Assembly (NCBI GenBank): GCA_021324855.1
Contig: JAJPIG010000008.1
Location: forward strand, 1 to 62,241
Reading direction: 5' to 3'
From: Pseudomonadota bacterium
Lineage (GTDB): Bacteria > Desulfobacterota > Binatia > Binatales > Binataceae
DNA length: 62,241 bases
The notes under the pieces are model-generated. The model ran no database searches. It worked only from the letters and a program-made list of their open reading frames with translations, and had not been told where the DNA came from. Of the stretch, positions 4,282-12,193 are shown in pieces. Each line of letters opens with the position of its first letter. Within the stretch, counting starts at the first letter, position 1. The position numbers and the translations under genes are program-made.

Positions 4282-5031
4282 ATGGCTTCGACACATCGCA
4301 AGCTGCGCCGCAAGGATCTGAAGCAGCCCGACGAGCTGACGACGCTGGTCGAGGCTGCGCAGGACTATCTCGCCACCCATCTCGGCGAGATCCTCTCGAT
4401 CGCCGCCGTGATCGCTGCCGCGATCATCGTGGTCTTCGCGATTCGCTTCTATCAGCAGCGTCGCGCCGCCACCGCCGCCAACGATTTCTACCAGGCCTTC
4501 ACGGCCCTCGACGCCAAGGATTACACGCGCGCCGAGGCCCGCTTCCGGAAGCTCGCCAACGAAGCGCCCGGGCTCCAGGTCGGCCGCCTCGCCTACTTCT
4601 ATCTCGGCACCTGCTACCTCCAACAGAACCGACTCGAGCCGGCCCGCGATGCCTTCAAGGCCTATATCGCCGGCGAGCACGATGAGATGTTCGCGAGCCT
4701 CGCGATGGTCAACCTCGGCGTCATCTACGAACGGATGGGCAAGCTTGCCGATGCCGAAGCGGCCTATCGCAAGGCCGCGGCCACGCCCGGCCCCGAGCAG
4801 ACCCGCGCGCAACTCTCCGTCGCCCGCATCCTCGATCGCGAGGGCAAGCGCGAGGCGGCGATCGACGAGTACCGCCGCTTCCTGAACGAGCATCCGTTTT
4901 CCAGCGAACGCCAGCAGGCGATGGAGGCGCTGGCGCAGCTCGGCGCATCGCAGGTGGCGCAGCCGCCGGCGTCGGCCAGCACTCCGGCCGGCCGCGCGCC
5001 ATCCAAAGCGGGCGCGCCGGCAGGCCACTGA
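4282..5031 (+). CDS. Single-pass membrane TPR protein (YfgM-like layout)
   Basis: A 249-residue protein with a charged cytoplasmic N-terminus, one strong membrane segment at about residues 36-56, and then tetratricopeptide repeats to about residue 220 (for example LAYFYLGTCYLQQNRLEPA and LAMVNLGVIYERMGKLADA). It ends in a Pro/Ala/Ser-rich tail. This resembles YfgM-type proteins, which are anchored in the inner membrane with a periplasmic TPR domain and assist envelope proteins. The gene converges with the dsbA-like gene, leaving 13 bp between the stops. The exact role is not evident. Confidence 0.75.
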   Translation: MASTHRKLRRKDLKQPDELTTLVEAAQDYLATHLGEILSIAAVIAAAIIVVFAIRFYQQRRAATAANDFYQAFTALDAKDYTRAEARFRKLANEAPGLQVGRLAYFYLGTCYLQQNRLEPARDAFKAYIAGEHDEMFASLAMVNLGVIYERMGKLADAEAAYRKAAATPGPEQTRAQLSVARILDREGKREAAIDEYRRFLNEHPFSSERQQAMEALAQLGASQVAQPPASASTPAGRAPSKAGAPAGH

Positions 5032-5044
5032 TTATCGTCCGCGA

Positions 5045-5944
5045 TTAGCCGCCCGCTGCGGCGGTGTGGCCGTCCTTCAGCTCCGACTTGATCACGAACT
5101 CGAACGACTTCTCTTCCGGCAGGCCGACCACCGGGATACCGTTGATGAGGAAGGTCGGCGTCGATTGCACGTGCGCGAGCGCGCCGTCGCGGATGTCCTG
5201 GCTGATCACCTCTTCGGCCGACTTGCCCATCATGCACTGGTCGAGCGCCTGCGTGTCGAGCTTGGCCGCCTTGGCGTAGTTCTCGACCCGCGAGCGCAGG
5301 TTGTTGGGATCGATCTGCGCCTGGCTCGAATAGAGGATTTGCGCGAATTCCCAGAAATCCGCCGGGTTCTGACGCCGGATGCATTCGGCGGCGATCGCGG
5401 CCGGGCGCGCCCACGGATGCATCGAGAGCGGGAAATTCTTGAAGATCAACTTCACCTTGCCCTTGTAGCGGTTGTTGACGATGGTCTCGATCTGGTCGAA
5501 GGCGCGCGCGCAGAACGGGCATTCGAAGTCGGCAAACTCGACGATCGTGACCGGCGCATTATCGGGACCCTGCGTCGCGCGATCGGTCAGGCGCAGCTTG
5601 TCGGTGTCGATGCGTCCCCAGGGATCTGTCCTGAGGTCGATATACTGGCCGATGATGATCTTGTCCTGGGCGGCATCGGTATAGATGTAGGTCTTGACCG
5701 AACCGTTGGGGGTCGTGACGGTCAGCGTCCGCGTCCAAAGCCCGGGAAAAGGGGAGGGCGTCGGCGCGCCGAGCGCGATATCCTTGATGCTCGCGATGTG
5801 AAAACGCTTCTGCAGGAAATCTTTGACGCGTGAATCGTGCGAGAGGTCGGGACCGGCGGCGGCCAGGGCCGCACCGGCCGCGGCGATACTCAGGCACAGG
5901 ATCATAATCGACAGGAACGCTCTCGATGGTCGCATAGTGGGCAT
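5045..5944 (-). CDS. Periplasmic DsbA-family thioredoxin-like protein
   Basis: A 299-residue exported protein. An N-terminal signal peptide (about residues 8-30, ending AALAAAG) precedes a roughly 90-residue N-terminal region and a DsbA/Thioredoxin_4 domain with redox motif C-P-F-C at 142-145 within FADFECPFCARAF. The cis-proline loop STPTFLINGIPVVG is present. The N-terminal domain before the redox domain recalls DsbC/DsbG-like or bacterial Thioredoxin_4 proteins. It probably oxidises or isomerises disulfides in the periplasm. An in-frame ATG nine bases into the gene (5935) is an alternative start. No DsbB/DsbD partner is adjacent. Confidence 0.85.
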   Translation of the reverse strand: MPTMRPSRAFLSIMILCLSIAAAGAALAAAGPDLSHDSRVKDFLQKRFHIASIKDIALGAPTPSPFPGLWTRTLTVTTPNGSVKTYIYTDAAQDKIIIGQYIDLRTDPWGRIDTDKLRLTDRATQGPDNAPVTIVEFADFECPFCARAFDQIETIVNNRYKGKVKLIFKNFPLSMHPWARPAAIAAECIRRQNPADFWEFAQILYSSQAQIDPNNLRSRVENYAKAAKLDTQALDQCMMGKSAEEVISQDIRDGALAHVQSTPTFLINGIPVVGLPEEKSFEFVIKSELKDGHTAAAGG

Positions 5945-6223
5945 ATCCTAGCTGGAGCAGACGGCTTCGGCGACTGAAAATTCGATGGTTCCGGGAAAAA
6001 ATTGCGCGTCCCCGGGCGGGGCAGCTCATCCCCCGCCGCGCCGCGCGCCCAAGGGACGGACTCGGGACCGCTTTCGCGATCCACTCTGTCCCTGCCTCAG
6101 CGTTCAGTTGCGGCTCAGGACGACAAACAGAGGCGACGAGGGATCAACGCGAAGCACATGTAAATCAGCAAATTCGATTTCAAATGGACGTTCGCTGTCG
6201 CAAGGAATCGAGATAGCGCCATT

Positions 6224-7798
6224 TCACGGTGTCCAGAATGAGCACATGTGGTCGCTCGCAAAACCGGTCTCGGTTTGGGGGGTTGGAGGCAACATGGATT
6301 GGATCTGCTGGTTCGAGCTATCGAATAAGGGCCATTCTGGGGCATCGGCCGAATTCGGGTCACCGCTTGCGGCGAATTGCGTCCAGTAGTTGATCATTAT
6401 GTCGGATAGCTGGTGCTGGTCCGGGTCGAGTTGATCGGTCCTCAGCAGATATAGAATTTCGGCCGTGTGGTATGCCCCCAATGGAAAGCTTACAGGGCGG
6501 TCGAAGAACGAAGGCGCATTCTCGTCGTTGAACTCGTATACGTACGTGGACACCCATCGTGCCAGCGACTCATGGGCGGAGAGCGCCGGACAGGCGAAAA
6601 CCCGGTCGGTACCCGCCGCACCGAGCGCGATGGATGCGTCGTTAGCGTAGTTGCTCAAGGGATACAGGTTGATGACAAGATTCACGAAGGGATGAGCCTC
6701 GGGCAAATCCAAAAGACCAGCGATCGCCGCTGGATACCCTGCTTCGGTCAGCGGACCTGAGCCAAAGTCAAATTGGATCGCCACCACGAACCGGTAATCA
6801 TCGTGACTGGTACCCGCAATAACCGGCACTTGGTTGAACTGGCCGCTGGCGAATGCTGCGCCCGGCGTTTGTCTCAGCACAATGCCATCTATGACTGGAA
6901 AAAAATCGCCCGTCTGCTGAGCTAGCACGATCTGCGCAGCCGGAATTTCCCGCAGGCATCTGGCGGTAATGCATCCGAACTTGGCCGCGAAGCTCTCGCC
7001 TTCCCCTTCTGCTGTCGCGATCGGAACAATCGACTGCTGATAACGCGTGAAACCACCTTCATACGACCCGCTCACCGCAATGGCACGCTGGAATAGTCCG
7101 GCAGCAGTGGGAGATGCGAGTTGAGAATAGACGCTGAGCGCGCCCGCGGACGTGCCAAATATCGTTATCCGTCGAGGATCGCCGCCGAATGCGGCGATGT
7201 TTCTGCGTAGCCATTTGAGCGCGAACTGCTGATCCATAAGTCCGTAGTTGCCATTGAGATGACCTTCATCATCGAGCGCCGGGTGAGAAAAAAACCCAAG
7301 AGTACCAAGGCGATAATTCATCGACGCGACGATGACATTCCCGTTTTGCAGTAACGCCGGCGTGACGTTGTCGAAATTTCCGTTCAAAACCCTCAATCCG
7401 CCACCGTGAATATAGACTATGACAGGGAGGTGCTGGGGCGGCTTTTGGCGTTTCTGTTGATGCGGCCGGAAAATATTGAGAAATAGACAGTCCTCGCTTC
7501 CGCCAACCTTCCCAGCTGAGGAGCCCGGCTGCGTGCACTCATTGCCGAACGCGACCGCAGAGAGAGGTTTAGTCCAGCGGCGATGGGCCCGCGGAGGCTT
7601 CCACCGGAGTTTTCCGACGGGCGGAGCGGCATAAGGAATGCCAAGAAATTCATCGATCAACTGGGTTTCGATCCCGCGCACCGGACCGTTGTCGGTCATG
7701 ACGACATGCGTGAGTGCAGCATCGCTTGCCTTCGCGCCGAAGCTGAGCAAAACGACTACGATCAAAATTGCGCCCAGATAAGCCAATTTCACCGACAT
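6224..7798 (-). CDS. Secreted type-B carboxylesterase
   Basis: A 524-residue alpha/beta hydrolase with a signal peptide (residues 1-27). It has the family marks FLGIPYAAPPVGKLRW, SEDCLFLNIF (the EDCL signature) and YIHGGG (oxyanion hole). The nucleophile elbow is GTSAG with Ser217, where most family members have GESAG. The catalytic His is His444 in GAYHTAEILYLL, and an acidic residue sits in GTSHDDYRF (333-334). Length and motif order are complete, so it is probably active as an ester hydrolase of unknown substrate. A near-perfect ribosome-binding site (GGAGGTGAG, 7801-7809) precedes the ATG. A transposon sits about 200 bp upstream and may have altered its promoter. Confidence 0.9.
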   Translation of the reverse strand: MSVKLAYLGAILIVVVLLSFGAKASDAALTHVVMTDNGPVRGIETQLIDEFLGIPYAAPPVGKLRWKPPRAHRRWTKPLSAVAFGNECTQPGSSAGKVGGSEDCLFLNIFRPHQQKRQKPPQHLPVIVYIHGGGLRVLNGNFDNVTPALLQNGNVIVASMNYRLGTLGFFSHPALDDEGHLNGNYGLMDQQFALKWLRRNIAAFGGDPRRITIFGTSAGALSVYSQLASPTAAGLFQRAIAVSGSYEGGFTRYQQSIVPIATAEGEGESFAAKFGCITARCLREIPAAQIVLAQQTGDFFPVIDGIVLRQTPGAAFASGQFNQVPVIAGTSHDDYRFVVAIQFDFGSGPLTEAGYPAAIAGLLDLPEAHPFVNLVINLYPLSNYANDASIALGAAGTDRVFACPALSAHESLARWVSTYVYEFNDENAPSFFDRPVSFPLGAYHTAEILYLLRTDQLDPDQHQLSDIMINYWTQFAASGDPNSADAPEWPLFDSSNQQIQSMLPPTPQTETGFASDHMCSFWTP

Positions 7799-7988: not shown

Positions 7989-7996
7989 CATCTAGT
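7989..7996. repeat. Target-site duplication, left copy (CATCTAGT)
   Basis: The 8 bp CATCTAGT directly before the left inverted repeat are repeated exactly at 10195-10202. Eight base pairs is the usual duplication length for IS1595-family insertion. Confidence 0.85.
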
Positions 7997-8020
7997 GGGG
8001 ACTAGGTGAATGTTGACACC
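7997..8020 (+). repeat. Left terminal inverted repeat
   Basis: Begins GGGGACTAGGTG and ends TTGACACC. It matches the reverse complement of 10171-10194 at 20 of 24 positions; the differences are at positions 6, 13, 14 and 16. It lies about 85 bp before the start of the passenger gene. Confidence 0.85.
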
Positions 8021-8105
8021 CACTGAAAAAGATGGCATATTTAGGTTGGTTTTGCCGGTTCGACCTTTCTGGTTTCGCGACCCCTTGAGGCAAAAGAGAG
8101 GGGAT

Positions 8106-8984
8106 ATGGAACAAGTCGATCAATATGCGTACTACCAACTCGGCGTGGCATTAACGCATTTGTCTTTAGCCCTACCAACCCGTGAGGCATCAAAATTCGG
8201 CGCGATGATTTTCCCATTATGGCGGGCGCAACAGGCCTTGAACGATTTTGTAGGTGCACGATTCTTCGTTCATTCAAAATCGGTCGCCAACGAACTGCTT
8301 CAACGCATTGGCAACTTGGAATCGGAAGCGCATTCTGGGGACGATAAAAATCCTTACGACTTTGAAAAAAACGTGCAGCCGTGGCAAGTGTCTGGGATCA
8401 AAAAACTGATCGGCGAACTTGAAACCGTTCTGGCGCGCGAATGTCCTACTGTGCCGATTTTCTTTATCCCGCCAAAGGGAATTTACAAAACCGACGATCT
8501 CATCAATCAAGCAGAGAACATGTTCTCGGAAGAGATTCGGAAAGCTATACCACCGCAGGCAATCACGGATGTTCATGAAGCTGGACGATGCGTGGCGTTC
8601 GAACTGCCAACAGCCGCAGGCTTTCACGTACTGCGGGCAACGGAGGCGCTCACTCGCGAATACTATAAATTCGTAACGACTAAGGATTCGGGAAAAACAG
8701 ACTGGGGGACGTGCATTGAGGAATTAAGAGAACAAGAAAGCGCCGACAAGGGGCTTCTGGATTTGCTCGACCAAATCAGAGAAGAGCGCAATACGGTCAT
8801 GCATCCCCGACGGAACCTGACGATGGACGAAGCGATCGCCGTCGTGAATCTCGCGCAAGCGGCTATTTCTCGAACCGCAATTGACATGATGAAAAAGGCG
8901 CCGCTGCAAATACTTGCTCGCGAACAGTCGGCTGTTCCCACAAATCCCGACGGGCAACTCCAGAGAGGGAAATCTAGCACTTAG
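8106..8984 (+). CDS. Transposon passenger: hypothetical protein with HEPN-like motif
   Basis: A protein of 292 residues that I cannot assign to a named family. The ATG at 8106 is chosen because AGAGAGGGG stands directly upstream; an earlier in-frame ATG at 8010 lies at the transposon end and is unlikely. The N-terminal half is helical. A conserved-looking centre (HEAGRCVAFELPTAAGFH, about 157-174) precedes a helical C-terminal domain containing RNTVMH (Arg228 to His233). That is the R-N-x3-H pattern of HEPN RNases and DUF4145-like HEPN domains, followed by helix DEAIAVVNLAQAAI. The gene is AT-richer than its chromosomal surroundings. It lies wholly within the transposon, so it is cargo. A nucleic-acid-cleaving or defence role is inference from the motif only. 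Confidence 0.7.
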   Translation: MEQVDQYAYYQLGVALTHLSLALPTREASKFGAMIFPLWRAQQALNDFVGARFFVHSKSVANELLQRIGNLESEAHSGDDKNPYDFEKNVQPWQVSGIKKLIGELETVLARECPTVPIFFIPPKGIYKTDDLINQAENMFSEEIRKAIPPQAITDVHEAGRCVAFELPTAAGFHVLRATEALTREYYKFVTTKDSGKTDWGTCIEELREQESADKGLLDLLDQIREERNTVMHPRRNLTMDEAIAVVNLAQAAISRTAIDMMKKAPLQILAREQSAVPTNPDGQLQRGKSST

Positions 8985-9135
8985 CCTTTAGTCTCGGACG
9001 AAAACGGAAAAGCGGTTTGACCAGGCGCTTGAACTTTTCGGGGTCGGCCTTTTCCAACTCCTGCCTTAAGCGCTCGTCTTCGGCGCGCGTCTTCTCGCTG
9101 ACGGGCCTTTTCTCTGGCGATTTCTTTTTGCGCAC
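8974..9135 (-). CDS. Possible small basic/acidic protein inside the transposon (53 aa)
   Basis: A GTG-initiated frame encoding 53 residues rich in Lys, Arg and Glu (RKKKSPEKRPVSEKTRAEDE, then LRQELEKADPEKFKRLVKPL). Third codon positions are mostly G or C and the charged residues follow a helical pattern, unlike the other two frames here. It lies 32 bp downstream of the transposase stop on the same strand and its end overlaps the passenger gene's 3' end by 11 bp. No clear ribosome-binding site is seen and an upstream in-frame TAA limits the start. A competing frame on the same strand (8981-9187, TTG start, overlapping the transposase end) reads as low-complexity Arg-rich protein and seems less likely. 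Confidence 0.4.
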   Translation of the reverse strand: MRKKKSPEKRPVSEKTRAEDERLRQELEKADPEKFKRLVKPLFRFRPRLKAKC

Positions 9136-9167
9136 GCTGAAAGCATAGCGCTTTTAGATCGGCGCTT

Positions 9168-10142
9168 CTACTGAGCGCACGTCGCAATTAGGTCGGCGAA
9201 CATCTCCTTGTTGTTCCGATTATTAAACCGATAGCTGAACTCGTTCAGGTAGAACGGCAAATATTTCTTGCTGACGTTGTGGTAGCTGCCGATCACGCCG
9301 CGTTTGAGTAACGCCCAGAATGATTCGATGTTGTTGGTGTGGATTTCGCCCCGCACCCATTCATTCGCCGAGTGCTTCACGGACTCATGGCGAATCTTGC
9401 GGTCGATGTAGTTGTAGTCCTTGTTCTCATCGGTCACGACCAGCGACACCTTCTCGTTGACCGCGCGCCGCACAAACCCCGCTAGGGTGGGCGCATCCTG
9501 ACTGCCAATGACGCGCGCCACAACGTTGCCCTTGCGCTCAATCGCGCCGATGATGCCAACCTTGCCATAGCCGATCTTCTCGCTGCCTAAAGGGAGTTCA
9601 CCAGCGGCAGCGCGGCGCTGGGCGCTTTTCTTGTTCCAGTGTCGATTGCGGTCCTTCCCGCCGATGTAGGTCTCGTCGGCCTCTACGATGCCGCTAAGCG
9701 GCTGATACATATCGCCAGCCATCGCGGCGCGCCAGCGCATACACATATACCAGCTTGTGTGGTAGTCGTGCGTGGAATCCTCGCCGAACATTACGCGATG
9801 AATCTGTAGCGCACTGATACCTTTCTTCGCGGTCAGCATCAGATAGCCGACCTTGAACCACAGGTTGAGCTTAATCTTGGTGTCTTGAAAGATCGTCCCA
9901 GTGATCACACTGAACCGATAGCCGTTGCGTTTGTGGCACTCGGTAATCTCGCCGGTCTCGCGGTCGCGAGTCTGAGCGCCGCTCTTACACACCCAATTGA
10001 ACGGGCGAGCGGGCAGAGCGAAGACCTTATCGCTACCGCAACGAGGACAAGTCACGTTAACCGGCCAGCGCATCCGCGCCAGAAACTCACGGCACTGCTC
10101 ATCGGTTCCGAAGGCTTTATCGAATTCGGTAATTGTTTCCAT
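9168..10142 (-). CDS. IS1595-family (ISXO2-like) transposase
   Basis: A full-length transposase of 324 residues. The N-terminus has a zinc-ribbon pattern (C32-P-R-C35, with further cysteines at 52 and 69). A helix-turn-helix-like stretch GISALQIHRVMFG follows at about 108-120. The DDE-type catalytic domain contains EADETYIGGKD (Asp156), SLVVTDENKDY (Asp238) and IHTNNIESFWALLKRG (270-282). These are the signature blocks of the ISXO2-like/IS1595 transposase domain. No stop codon or frameshift is seen, and both terminal repeats are present, so the protein may be functional. It starts at an ATG about 50 bp inside the right end of the element. Confidence 0.92.
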   Translation of the reverse strand: METITEFDKAFGTDEQCREFLARMRWPVNVTCPRCGSDKVFALPARPFNWVCKSGAQTRDRETGEITECHKRNGYRFSVITGTIFQDTKIKLNLWFKVGYLMLTAKKGISALQIHRVMFGEDSTHDYHTSWYMCMRWRAAMAGDMYQPLSGIVEADETYIGGKDRNRHWNKKSAQRRAAAGELPLGSEKIGYGKVGIIGAIERKGNVVARVIGSQDAPTLAGFVRRAVNEKVSLVVTDENKDYNYIDRKIRHESVKHSANEWVRGEIHTNNIESFWALLKRGVIGSYHNVSKKYLPFYLNEFSYRFNNRNNKEMFADLIATCAQ

Positions 10143-10170
10143 ACCCTAGAAGATAGCGCTTGTCGAGATT

Positions 10171-10194
10171 GGTGTCAATAGCCACCTAATCCCC
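10171..10194 (-). repeat. Right terminal inverted repeat
   Basis: Reading inward on the - strand it begins GGGGATTAGGTG and ends TTGACACC. It pairs with the left repeat at 20 of 24 positions. It lies upstream of the transposase start. Confidence 0.85.
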
Positions 10195-10202
10195 CATCTA
10201 GT
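10195..10202. repeat. Target-site duplication, right copy (CATCTAGT)
   Basis: Exact copy of 7989-7996, directly abutting the right inverted repeat. Removing the element and one copy restores a continuous intergenic sequence. Confidence 0.85.
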
Positions 10203-10351
10203 TTACATAATGTTTCTTATGCGAAGTAACTCGCAGGTATATCGATTGGCCGATTCTATCCGATGACGCTGATGACTCGGTCGATGTGAACGTTACGGCC
10301 GTGCCGGCCCGAGTCCGCTTCGAATATTCGACCTGTTGAAAGAAAAATTCT

Positions 10352-10984
10352 CTACGACCTTCGCCGATGCCGCGAGGCGCCGCCCGGTTCCGCCGCGGCC
10401 TGGTCGGCCGCGGTCTCCGCGCGCGGCTTCCGATAGCCGAGCTGATCGAGCATCCGCAGCACCTGGAAATCATACGGCGCAAGCTCGACTGCCGCGCGCA
10501 GATAGGCGACCGCGCTCGACTTGCGATTCATCGCGAGACAGGCCCGCGCCAGCATCCGCAGCACGTCGGCTGAATCGCCGCCGATTTCCCGCGCCCGCCG
10601 GAGCGCCTTCAGCGCCTCCTCATGGCTTCCCGCTTCGAGCATAAAGCGGCCGAGCGTCGCCGCGGCGGATGCGCTTAGGACGTCAAGTTCGATCGCGTCG
10701 CGAATCATGATCAGCGCCGCCTTGCGCCCGCCCGAAGCCCAGATTTTTTCCGCTTCGATTCGCAGCCGTTCCGATTCATCGCAAAAGCATTGCGCGCCGA
10801 CGTCGACCGTCGCCTGCTTCGCGCCGACCTCCGCCCTGATGAGCGTGAGGCGCGGTCCGAGGTAATCGTTGAGCCGCCGCAGAATCTCGCGTTCGTTGCC
10901 TTCGGCGGGCTCGAAGAAGATCGCGCCGAGGGCGTCTTCAAGATGGTCCTCGCGCCGAAGGGTCAGCCTGCGCCGTTGTCTCAT
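10352..10984 (-). CDS. TPR-like repeat protein
   Basis: A soluble-looking protein of 210 residues. It has a basic N-terminus, a helical middle, and tetratricopeptide-like repeats from about residue 80 (KAALIMIRDAIELDVLSASA, then LGRFMLEAGSHEEALKALRR and LARACLAMNRKSSAVAYLRA). No signal peptide is visible. It starts 15 bp downstream of the dGTPase-like gene with a GGGGCAGGG ribosome-binding region, so the two are probably cotranscribed. TPR proteins usually mediate protein contacts; the partner is unknown. The transposon lies just downstream of its stop. Confidence 0.7.
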   Translation of the reverse strand: MRQRRRLTLRREDHLEDALGAIFFEPAEGNEREILRRLNDYLGPRLTLIRAEVGAKQATVDVGAQCFCDESERLRIEAEKIWASGGRKAALIMIRDAIELDVLSASAAATLGRFMLEAGSHEEALKALRRAREIGGDSADVLRMLARACLAMNRKSSAVAYLRAAVELAPYDFQVLRMLDQLGYRKPRAETAADQAAAEPGGASRHRRRS

Positions 10985-10999
10985 CGCCCTGCCCCGCTC

Positions 11000-12193
11000 T
11001 CACACCCGCTCGTCCGGATCGAACAGCTTGCGATACTCGTCGAGCGCGAAGCGATCGGTCATCCCCGCGATGTAGTCGGCGACCACGCGCGGCAGCGTCT
11101 CGCCGTCGCGCTCCATCCGGCTCAGGATATGCTCCGGAATCTGGCGCGGCTCGTTCATGTACGCCTTGAACAGCGCCTCGATCACGCGGCCCGCCTTCTC
11201 GGTCATCCGGGTGACCCGGTAATGACGATAGAGCCGCTCGCGCATGATTTGCCGCAGCCCGGCGACCTTCGGTTCCATCGCGGGGCTGAAGGCCGACAGC
11301 GTCGCGCCGGCGCGCCGGACGTCATCGACGCTCCCGATGCCGCGCCGGGCCAACGTCGCGTCGATATTGCGCAGCAGATCGTTGACCATCAGATCGATCA
11401 TGCGGTTCACGGTCTGATAGCGGAGCACGCGCGCATCCGCTTCAGGAGCGGATTTGCGCGCCATCTCAGCCGCTTCGCGATAAAGCTCGGAGGCTTCCAG
11501 ATCGGCGGCGGTGAGCATCTGCGCCTTCACGCCGTCGTCCACATCGTGGGCGAGATAGGCGATCTCATCGGCGAGGTCGACGATTTGCGCTTCCAGGCAC
11601 GGGTACGACTCGAAATCGAACTCGCGCGCGGCGGGGCGATCGCGAAAATGGGAATGCTTGATGATGCCCTCGCGCACTTCGAAGCTCAGATTGAGGCCGC
11701 GAAAGGCCGGGTAGCGCACCTCGATCCAGTCGACGGTGCGCAGGCTCTGCGCGTTATGATCGAAGCCGCCATGCGGCGCCATCAGCTCGTTCAGCACGCG
11801 CTCGCCGGCGTGGCCGAACGGCGTATGGCCGAGATCGTGGGCGAGCACGACGGCTTCGGCCAGATGTTCGTTGAGCGCGAGGTTGCGCGCGATCGTGCGG
11901 GTAATCTGCGCCGCTTCCATCGTATGGGTCAGACGGGTGCGGTAGTAGTCGCCCTCGTGATTGACGAACACCTGGGTCTTGTATTCGAGGCGGCGGAAGG
12001 CGGCGGAATGGATAATCCGATCGCGGTCGCGCTGGAACGCCGTGCGCATCGGATGCTCCGGCTCGGGAAAGCGCCGCCCGCGGCTCGCCCGCGAGCGCAT
12101 CGCATAGGGCGCAAGCGTGCGTTCCTCGATTTCTTCGAGCGCGTTACGATCGCGGAGCATCGGCGTGAACAAAACCGATCCGGATGCTACCAC
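11000..12193 (-). CDS. dgt: Deoxyguanosinetriphosphate triphosphohydrolase-like protein
   Basis: HD-domain phosphohydrolase of 397 residues in the dGTPase-like family, hydrolysing dNTPs to nucleoside and triphosphate. The metal site is clear: H90 in RTRLTHTMEAAQ, H119-D120 in AHDLGHTPFGH with H123 and H128, and a later conserved Asp in QIVDLADEIAYLAHDVDD. The N-terminal LAPYAMRS and FQRDRDRIIHSAAFRRLEYKTQVF are standard. The encoded start is GTG at 12193; an in-frame ATG at 12160 (MLRDRNALEE) gives a more usual N-terminus. It is divergent from the rlpA-type gene and probably cotranscribed with the TPR gene. Confidence 0.92.
   Translation of the reverse strand: MVASGSVLFTPMLRDRNALEEIEERTLAPYAMRSRASRGRRFPEPEHPMRTAFQRDRDRIIHSAAFRRLEYKTQVFVNHEGDYYRTRLTHTMEAAQITRTIARNLALNEHLAEAVVLAHDLGHTPFGHAGERVLNELMAPHGGFDHNAQSLRTVDWIEVRYPAFRGLNLSFEVREGIIKHSHFRDRPAAREFDFESYPCLEAQIVDLADEIAYLAHDVDDGVKAQMLTAADLEASELYREAAEMARKSAPEADARVLRYQTVNRMIDLMVNDLLRNIDATLARRGIGSVDDVRRAGATLSAFSPAMEPKVAGLRQIMRERLYRHYRVTRMTEKAGRVIEALFKAYMNEPRQIPEHILSRMERDGETLPRVVADYIAGMTDRFALDEYRKLFDPDERV

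Follow-up and report, generated by a model that had tools for sequence, protein, structure and literature searches.

Why should a complete, cargo-bearing transposon lie directly against dif, the site where the bacterial chromosome is separated at cell division? This question is raised by a 62,241-nt stretch of a Binataceae genome (contig JAJPIG010000008.1, positions 1–62,241; here called the window), in which a complete 2,198-bp element of the IS1595 family occupies positions 7997–10194. We consider it very likely that this element is a dif hunter, that is, a cargo-bearing IS1595 transposon from a clade mostly found at one exact position adjacent to dif. A preliminary description of the locus, made from its sequence alone, recognised the transposon and overlooked this main point, its exact dif-adjacent target.

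The ends of the element are inverted repeats (7997–8020 and 10171–10194) that agree at 20 of 24 positions, and these are flanked by an exact 8-bp target duplication, CATCTAGT, at 7989–7996 and 10195–10202. An all-pairs scan for ends, which ran from 170 bp upstream to 6 kb downstream of the transposase gene and required at least 13 of 24 matching positions in the repeats and at least 7 of 8 in the duplication, returned this pair of ends with its 8-bp duplication as the sole solution. The intact 324-aa transposase matches Pfam DDE_Tnp_IS1595 (E 7.6e-38) and Zn_ribbon_IS1595 (E 1.5e-10) as well as NCBIfam transpos_IS1595 (E 4.5e-51). A zinc-ribbon DDE transposase, terminal inverted repeats and an 8-bp duplication place the element in the IS1595 family, and it carries a passenger gene. 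The preliminary description had claimed an intact IS1595-type transposon with a full-length transposase, 24-bp repeats with 20 identities and an exact 8-bp duplication, and all of this was borne out. The features of the region are as follows.

7989–7996: distal copy of the duplication (CATCTAGT; ACTAGATG in the dif direction)
7997–8020: inverted repeat on the cargo side; TTGACA at 8013–8018 is a possible –35 for the cargo gene
8106–8984, plus strand: cargo gene for a 292-aa DUF4145/HEPN protein (PF13643), with RNTVMH encoded from 8787
8974–9135, minus strand: small basic protein of 53 aa with a GTG start, conserved behind the transposase and a marker of the clade
9168–10142, minus strand: intact IS1595-family DDE transposase of 324 aa, assigned by profile matches
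10150–10178, minus strand: probable transposase promoter (TTGACA 10178–10173, 17-nt spacer, TATCTT 10155–10150), read from the sequence by consensus match only
10171–10194: inverted repeat on the transposase side, adjoining dif
10195–10202: proximal copy of the duplication, its three bases nearest dif being the end of the XerD arm
10200–10227, minus strand: chromosomal dif (XerC arm 10227–10217, centre GAAACA, XerD arm 10210–10200)
10352–12193, minus strand: TPR gene and dgt (dGTPase), flanking context outside the element and dif neighbours in many genomes of the family

Read from the dif side, the element thus encodes the transposase and the 53-aa protein on the minus strand, followed by the convergent cargo gene on the plus strand. 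Because a TTGACA within the inverted repeat is followed 17 nt later by TATCTT before the transposase start, the transposase promoter probably has its –35 within the element end. The search for further copies that the preliminary description had proposed showed the element to be present once in its own 3.7-Mb assembly, and the insertions of its relatives to carry differing duplications. The same genome also holds an IS1595 element of another subgroup (C27), with the duplication TTATTTTG, no dif and a transposase with one stop.

On the minus strand, dif in the window reads ACTTCGCATAA GAAACA TTATGTAAACT (XerC arm, 6-nt centre and XerD arm); AGATG comes next, and the element begins directly after it. 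The duplication takes in the final 3 nt of the XerD arm, which places the element 5 nt past an intact dif. The dif pattern TTCGCATAANNNNNNTTATGTNAACT, with up to 3 mismatches allowed, matched once in the genome, at the element and with 0 mismatches, whereas its reversed control matched 0 times. The XerC arm is identical to that of one Acinetobacter dif quoted in the cited part of PMC10132070. The GC (guanine–cytosine) skew around the site (0.000 on one side, –0.025 on the other) gave a weak signal. By coordinates, transposase relatives in the family were repeatedly found near dgt. We rejected dgt as the target, since in this family dif is found downstream of the dgt–TPR gene pair, and this location accounts for the association.

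The same position was then surveyed across 148 genomes of the class (cited by our G handles), 81 of which contained a match to the plain dif pattern with up to 3 mismatches. A composite pattern of the XerD arm, 5 free nucleotides and an IS1595-type end, likewise with up to 3 mismatches, yielded 15 matches in 14 of the 148 genomes and 0 in the reversed control. Upon inspection, 13 of these 15 were dif/element junctions (G000, G002, G008, G013, G016, G031, G036, G037, G039, G077, G106, G138 and G143), and the other two (G013:C34 and G107:C243, 3 mismatches each) were judged to be chance matches. Two additional junctions (G015:C42 and G039:C142) had ends that the composite pattern does not cover. 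This resulted in 15 junctions in 14 genomes, a count from which decayed ends at G012 and perhaps G011 were left out, and all 15 displayed the 5-nt spacing on the XerD side. A second view of this precision was offered by the 69 distinct dif-like sites with flanks, being those in the loci fetched rather than those of all 81 pattern-positive genomes. When scanned for an IS1595-type end (the regular expression GG, 14 nt, T[TC]GAC), 11 of the 69 sites had such an end at XerD-side offset 5, and none had one at the 29 other XerD-side offsets (0–29) or at the 18 XerC-side offsets (0–17). In the same DNA these ends occur at a rate of 2.7e-4 per position, which leads to an expectation of 0.018 at any given offset. 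Taken at the level of sequence, these counts provide good evidence for a precise target next to dif.

Both element ends were present at ten junctions, nine of which had exact 8-bp repeats (G000, G002, G008, G013, G015:C42, G016, G077, G138 and G143) and one a 7/8 repeat (G039:C142). It is the exactness of these duplications that argues for separate and recent insertions. Moreover, dif is faced by the transposase-start end in seven cases (G000, G016, G031, G036, G037, G138 and G039:C142) and by the far end in seven others (G002, G008, G013, G015:C42, G077, G106 and G143), with one junction of the 15 (G039:C143) left unassigned in orientation. The transposase closest to that of the window (79% identical) belongs to G002, in which 3,186 bp lie between two copies of ACTACGCG. 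In its congeners G007, G001, G006 and G004, dif runs on without interruption into a flank recognisable as the same one, and these filled and empty sites, as aligned, prove insertion in G002, a sister lineage. The comparison with an empty site that the preliminary description had called for was therefore possible for this relative; for the window's own insertion, no alignable empty site was found.

At three loci (G013, G016 and G015:C42), a further IS1595 end, decayed by one letter in G013, begins immediately beyond the far repeat copy. In these stacked loci a complete element sits between dif and the outer element, and the outer element is read as the older one. The outer DNA of G016 retains a remnant of the small protein that is 78% identical to that of the window. 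Elsewhere in the genome of G015, which also has an element at dif, three IS1595 elements with exact duplications were observed nested or back to back (L063, G015:C14, 3500–10900).

How the dif-adjacent elements are related was addressed with a tree of 92 transposases, built by a quick method, 11 of them at dif, 51 with ends elsewhere and 30 without a clear insertion state; matches shorter than 250 residues, matches from the wider set below 41% identity and duplicates of the places of G handles were left out. The window's transposase fell in a clade of nine (SH-aLRT, the Shimodaira–Hasegawa-like approximate likelihood ratio test, 97), with seven at dif and two undecided, and the next clade comprised 14 transposases, nine at dif, two elsewhere and three undecided. 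The repeated landing of relatives in other species beside dif suggests that these elements aim for it. In wider genome and viral collections, 167 transposases at 160 loci included 88 with ends, and only L194, L195 and L196 were at dif, these being G002, G016 and G138 again; since flanks were inspected only for repeats of at least 18/24, a diverged dif could escape, and L196 was missed by the regular expression and recognised from its flank. A similar composite pattern matched none of the 30 genomes scanned from other groups, which are those of 30 of 36 loci (L200–L235), and the exact composite pattern matched 0 viral contigs. Targeting of dif was seen only in this class, within limited tests elsewhere.

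Two viral contigs deserve mention. At the end of one (L274, IMGVR_UViG_3300031576_000737, 5001–6293) lies a clade member with a 62% identical transposase and the small protein. Next to it begins an open reading frame (ORF) that by eye resembles a DNA methyltransferase (DLVYLDPPFNSAQ), and this clade member may be carried by a phage. The other (L285) has a dif-like sequence about 4.4 kb from an IS1595 transposase start, not adjoining the element.

The tiny ORF of the preliminary description (8974–9135, minus strand) is real, as it is kept downstream of the transposase in related elements. Across the clade it encodes a basic protein of 48–57 aa with the motif [ST]EKxRxxDExLRxxL, which was placed 47–92 nt behind the transposase match in 17 of 225 match rows (overlapping and duplicate rows included), corresponding to 13 distinct elements, and was lacking in the other 208 rows. 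Besides the window, the loci were L029, L031, L032, L045, L046, L048, L055, L056, L058, L063, L064 and L274, and a weaker form was present in G124 and G005:C124. All nine dif-adjacent elements of the tree clade have the protein (G036 and G037, cut by contig ends, fell outside this test), and it had no match of note in Pfam, PADLOC or NCBIfam. This predicted 48–57-aa product is a marker of the present IS1595 clade. That it alone decides dif targeting is not supported: it occurs in two non-dif elements (G015:C14 and G004:C495) and weakly in a third (G005:C124), and was not found in three elements at dif, namely G106, G039:C142 and the broken copy G015:C42.

The passenger gene of the preliminary description likewise stood, and its product, which had not been recognised, is a DUF4145/HEPN protein. 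Its ORF is open from 8010, inside the inverted repeat, and the likely start is the ATG at 8106 behind AGAGAGGGG, yielding 292 aa. The protein matched Pfam PF13643 (DUF4145) with E 7.9e-8 and 32.7 bits, against a curated cut-off of 23.1; two of four cargo relatives tested matched DUF4145 or HEPN below the cut-off and the other two matched nothing. Its motif RNTVMH, in which N follows R, fits Rx4-6H, which the part of PMC3710099 cited here describes as the main determinant of the active site in HEPN RNases. The motif is kept in G138, L222, G077 and G033 and missing from the G015 copy. In the predicted fold, a weak model with a mean pLDDT (predicted local distance difference test score) of 63, residues 173–297 (324-aa numbering) come nearest to HEPN structures. 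Foldseek returned no match for this model at E ≤ 0.001, and in a second structure comparison HEPN chains ranked first with Z 12.9, 12.0 and 11.4, values near the chance level for helical bundles. The cargo resembles the DUF4145 branch of the HEPN superfamily, as delineated in the same part of PMC3710099, in its PF13643 match, its Rx4H motif and, as far as the weak model goes, a helical HEPN-like fold, but differs from it by some 150 N-terminal helical residues without a named family and by its setting in an IS1595 element. A DUF4145-containing anti-phage protein, BxaP, appears in the cited portion of PMC10799925. Motif, fold and family together suggest that this gene most likely encodes a HEPN ribonuclease with a toxin-like or anti-phage role.

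Five cargo matches, the window's own included, were found in the 148 genomes, and four of them lie inside IS1595 elements (the window, G138, G077 and a partial copy in G015:C7), with those of G138 and G077 also at dif. The arrangement that the preliminary description had named as a sign of fortuitous repeats, namely the cargo at this locus without the ends and transposase, was absent among the five. The fifth match (L028, G033:C12, 3759–4493) has no insertion sequence and lies between an HsdR-like and a metalloprotease-like gene on one side and a helicase gene on the other (named by eye), a neighbourhood that resembles a defence island. In L222, a gammaproteobacterial locus, the HEPN gene falls just beyond the ends of the element and was therefore not counted as cargo. 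A first cargo scan of genome contigs and a scan of viral contigs with the cargo alignment gave no match, nor did the plasmid collection at E 1e-5.

Sibling dif elements carry different cargoes: G143 a RelA/SpoT-domain protein that matches the candidate defence family PDC-S33 of PADLOC (L048, G143:C75, 5309–6463, minus strand; E 2.5e-119), and G013 a DUF3800 protein. The other sibling-element proteins tested had no family match above the cut-off. Two dif elements (L029, 7505–8179, and L046, 5282–5917, both minus strand) hold ORFs of similar appearance that share a GGDLDNR motif and, judged by eye, resemble RusA; Pfam RusA gave E 0.064 for one and no match for the other. Apart from these, the partial G015 copy (L027, G015:C7, 4184–6518) is an IS1595 element of another subgroup, its DUF4145-like cargo lacking the C-terminal motif and its end being overlapped by a convergent small ORF.

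What could hold these elements at a single position? In the explanation that we propose, staggered joining over 8 bp would duplicate the terminal 3 nt of the XerD arm and the 5 nt beyond it; dif would stay whole, and on its side of the insertion the arm and these 5 nt would be restored, making the site usable again. The transposase, perhaps with the small protein as a partner, would recognise XerD on dif or else read the XerD arm as DNA, and dif would be a safe and lasting place to insert, being intergenic and retained as a single site by chromosomes. The position, spacing, side and duplications of the junctions, the empty sites of one relative and the stacking can be read directly from the sequences. 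Descent from a single ancient insertion beside dif, inherited vertically and since diverged, would also account for a shared position; 11 of the 15 junctions indeed come from one family, the dgt–TPR–dif neighbourhood is conserved, and G036 and G037 share the same junction sequence. However, nine exact duplications, both orientations, stacked ends, transposases of separate branches at the same position, and the fact that most of the 69 dif sites, those of the four G002 congeners among them, show no end that can be recognised, all argue against descent, and empty sites with the pre-insertion sequence already contradict it. We rejected it as very improbable. Rejected as well, with at least as little to recommend it, was the idea that dif is merely a permissive intergenic hotspot near the terminus in which elements land without recognition: terminus regions tolerate insertions, but the single-nucleotide precision (offset 5 in 11 of 11 sites positive for the regular expression, and none at the 29 other or the 18 XerC-side offsets) is at odds with it. 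Integration by XerCD recombination, as in IMEX (integrative mobile elements exploiting Xer) phages and islands, with an incidental transposase, would fit an element that abuts dif. We rejected this equally remote alternative too, as the junction has one dif and the other end consists of the 8-bp duplication and an IS1595 inverted repeat without a second dif-like site.

Within the dif-hunter explanation, it is a substantial possibility, though one falling somewhat short of probable, that the transposase alone reads the target DNA, be it the sequence or a bend of the XerD arm, with no Xer contact. The targets retain the XerD-arm core, and two elements at dif, G106 and G039:C142, have no small protein; nothing decisive speaks against it, and the exact distance outside the arm suits either model. 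A more elaborate and rather doubtful version would have two-component homing, in which the transposase and the 48–57-aa protein, a hitherto undescribed partner, read the XerD–dif complex, and cargo transposons (HEPN, RelA/SpoT-type and DUF3800) pile up in order of arrival at a dock that renews itself, as a dif-anchored defence or toxin island.

A number of observations weigh against dif hunting or blunt its support. Targeting is not absolute, as G007:C136 and G005:C124 of the 14-member clade are not at dif, while the dif-adjacent G106 and G039:C142 branch outside that clade and the tree does not include the broken copy G015:C42; given G106 and G039:C142, dif targeting may have arisen more than once or may predate the clade. 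G106 and G039:C142 are also without the small protein. The reversed control of the plain dif pattern matched in 18 of the 148 genomes, so that some 3-mismatch dif matches are chance, and the dif-like site of G138, with its 7-nt centre, was missed by that pattern. The difference among the ten duplications carries no weight for separate insertion, since the host flanks differ; the far side of G106 showed no direct repeat; and the identical junction letters of G036 and G037, both of one genus, may reflect one event. G022, a genome of the same genus as the window, also has an empty dif, yet confident alignment of its right flank with that of the window was not possible. Finally, the two strong matches to the XerD family model in the window's own genome, which count in favour, fall below the curated cut-off.

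Site-specific transposition by simple DDE elements is uncommon, and dif targeting had, to our knowledge, been described for the IS1202 family alone. A second, unrelated family on the other Xer arm, at the same 5-nt distance, suggests that Xer–dif complexes generally serve transposons as docking targets. As the XerD arm and the following 5 nt are recreated by each insertion, successive insertions can be preserved as layers in the flank of dif, and the DNA next to dif is worth searching for cargo such as HEPN or RelA/SpoT-type genes. The system also allows a direct test of whether the chromosome-segregation complex can recruit a transposase.

No report of IS1595 elements targeting dif was found among the open-access papers searched, and PMC9462459, which mentions IS1595 and XerC, is in its cited part not about dif. 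With the IS1595 family as portrayed in the cited part of PMC5704250, the window element shares the transposase family, inverted repeats of about 24 bp, the 8-bp duplication and a passenger gene. The passenger-carrying transporter insertion sequences (tIS) MTnSag1/tISSag10 and tISCpe8 described there have a low target specificity with a preference for AT-rich DNA, a usual IS1595 trait judging from these two members rather than part of the family's definition; the window element lacks it, most placed members of its clade being at dif, and differs further by its HEPN cargo and conserved small protein. IMEX, in the excerpted account of PMC5357621, likewise use dif as a chromosomal address. They carry a dif-like attachment site that is joined by XerCD and are bounded by dif or dif-like sites, whereas the window element has a DDE transposase whose insertion leaves a target duplication, with one dif on one side and the duplication at the far end. 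The closest parallel is provided by the ISAjo2 group of the IS1202 family, termed 'dif site hunters' in the sections of PMC10132070 cited here, where XerC is proposed to recruit the transposase at dif. These too are DDE elements that lie 5 bp from an Xer-binding arm and leave dif intact. According to the same sections, however, they insert on the XerC side with a 5-bp duplication and in one orientation, and have a TnsB-like transposase of 441–457 aa and no extra proteins, whereas the dif-adjacent IS1595 elements are found on the XerD side with an 8-bp duplication and in both orientations (7 versus 7), and the window element has an IS1595 transposase of 324 aa, a cargo gene and the small protein. 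As far as sequence comparison goes, the window element works like the dif hunters of the IS1202 family but is unrelated to them.

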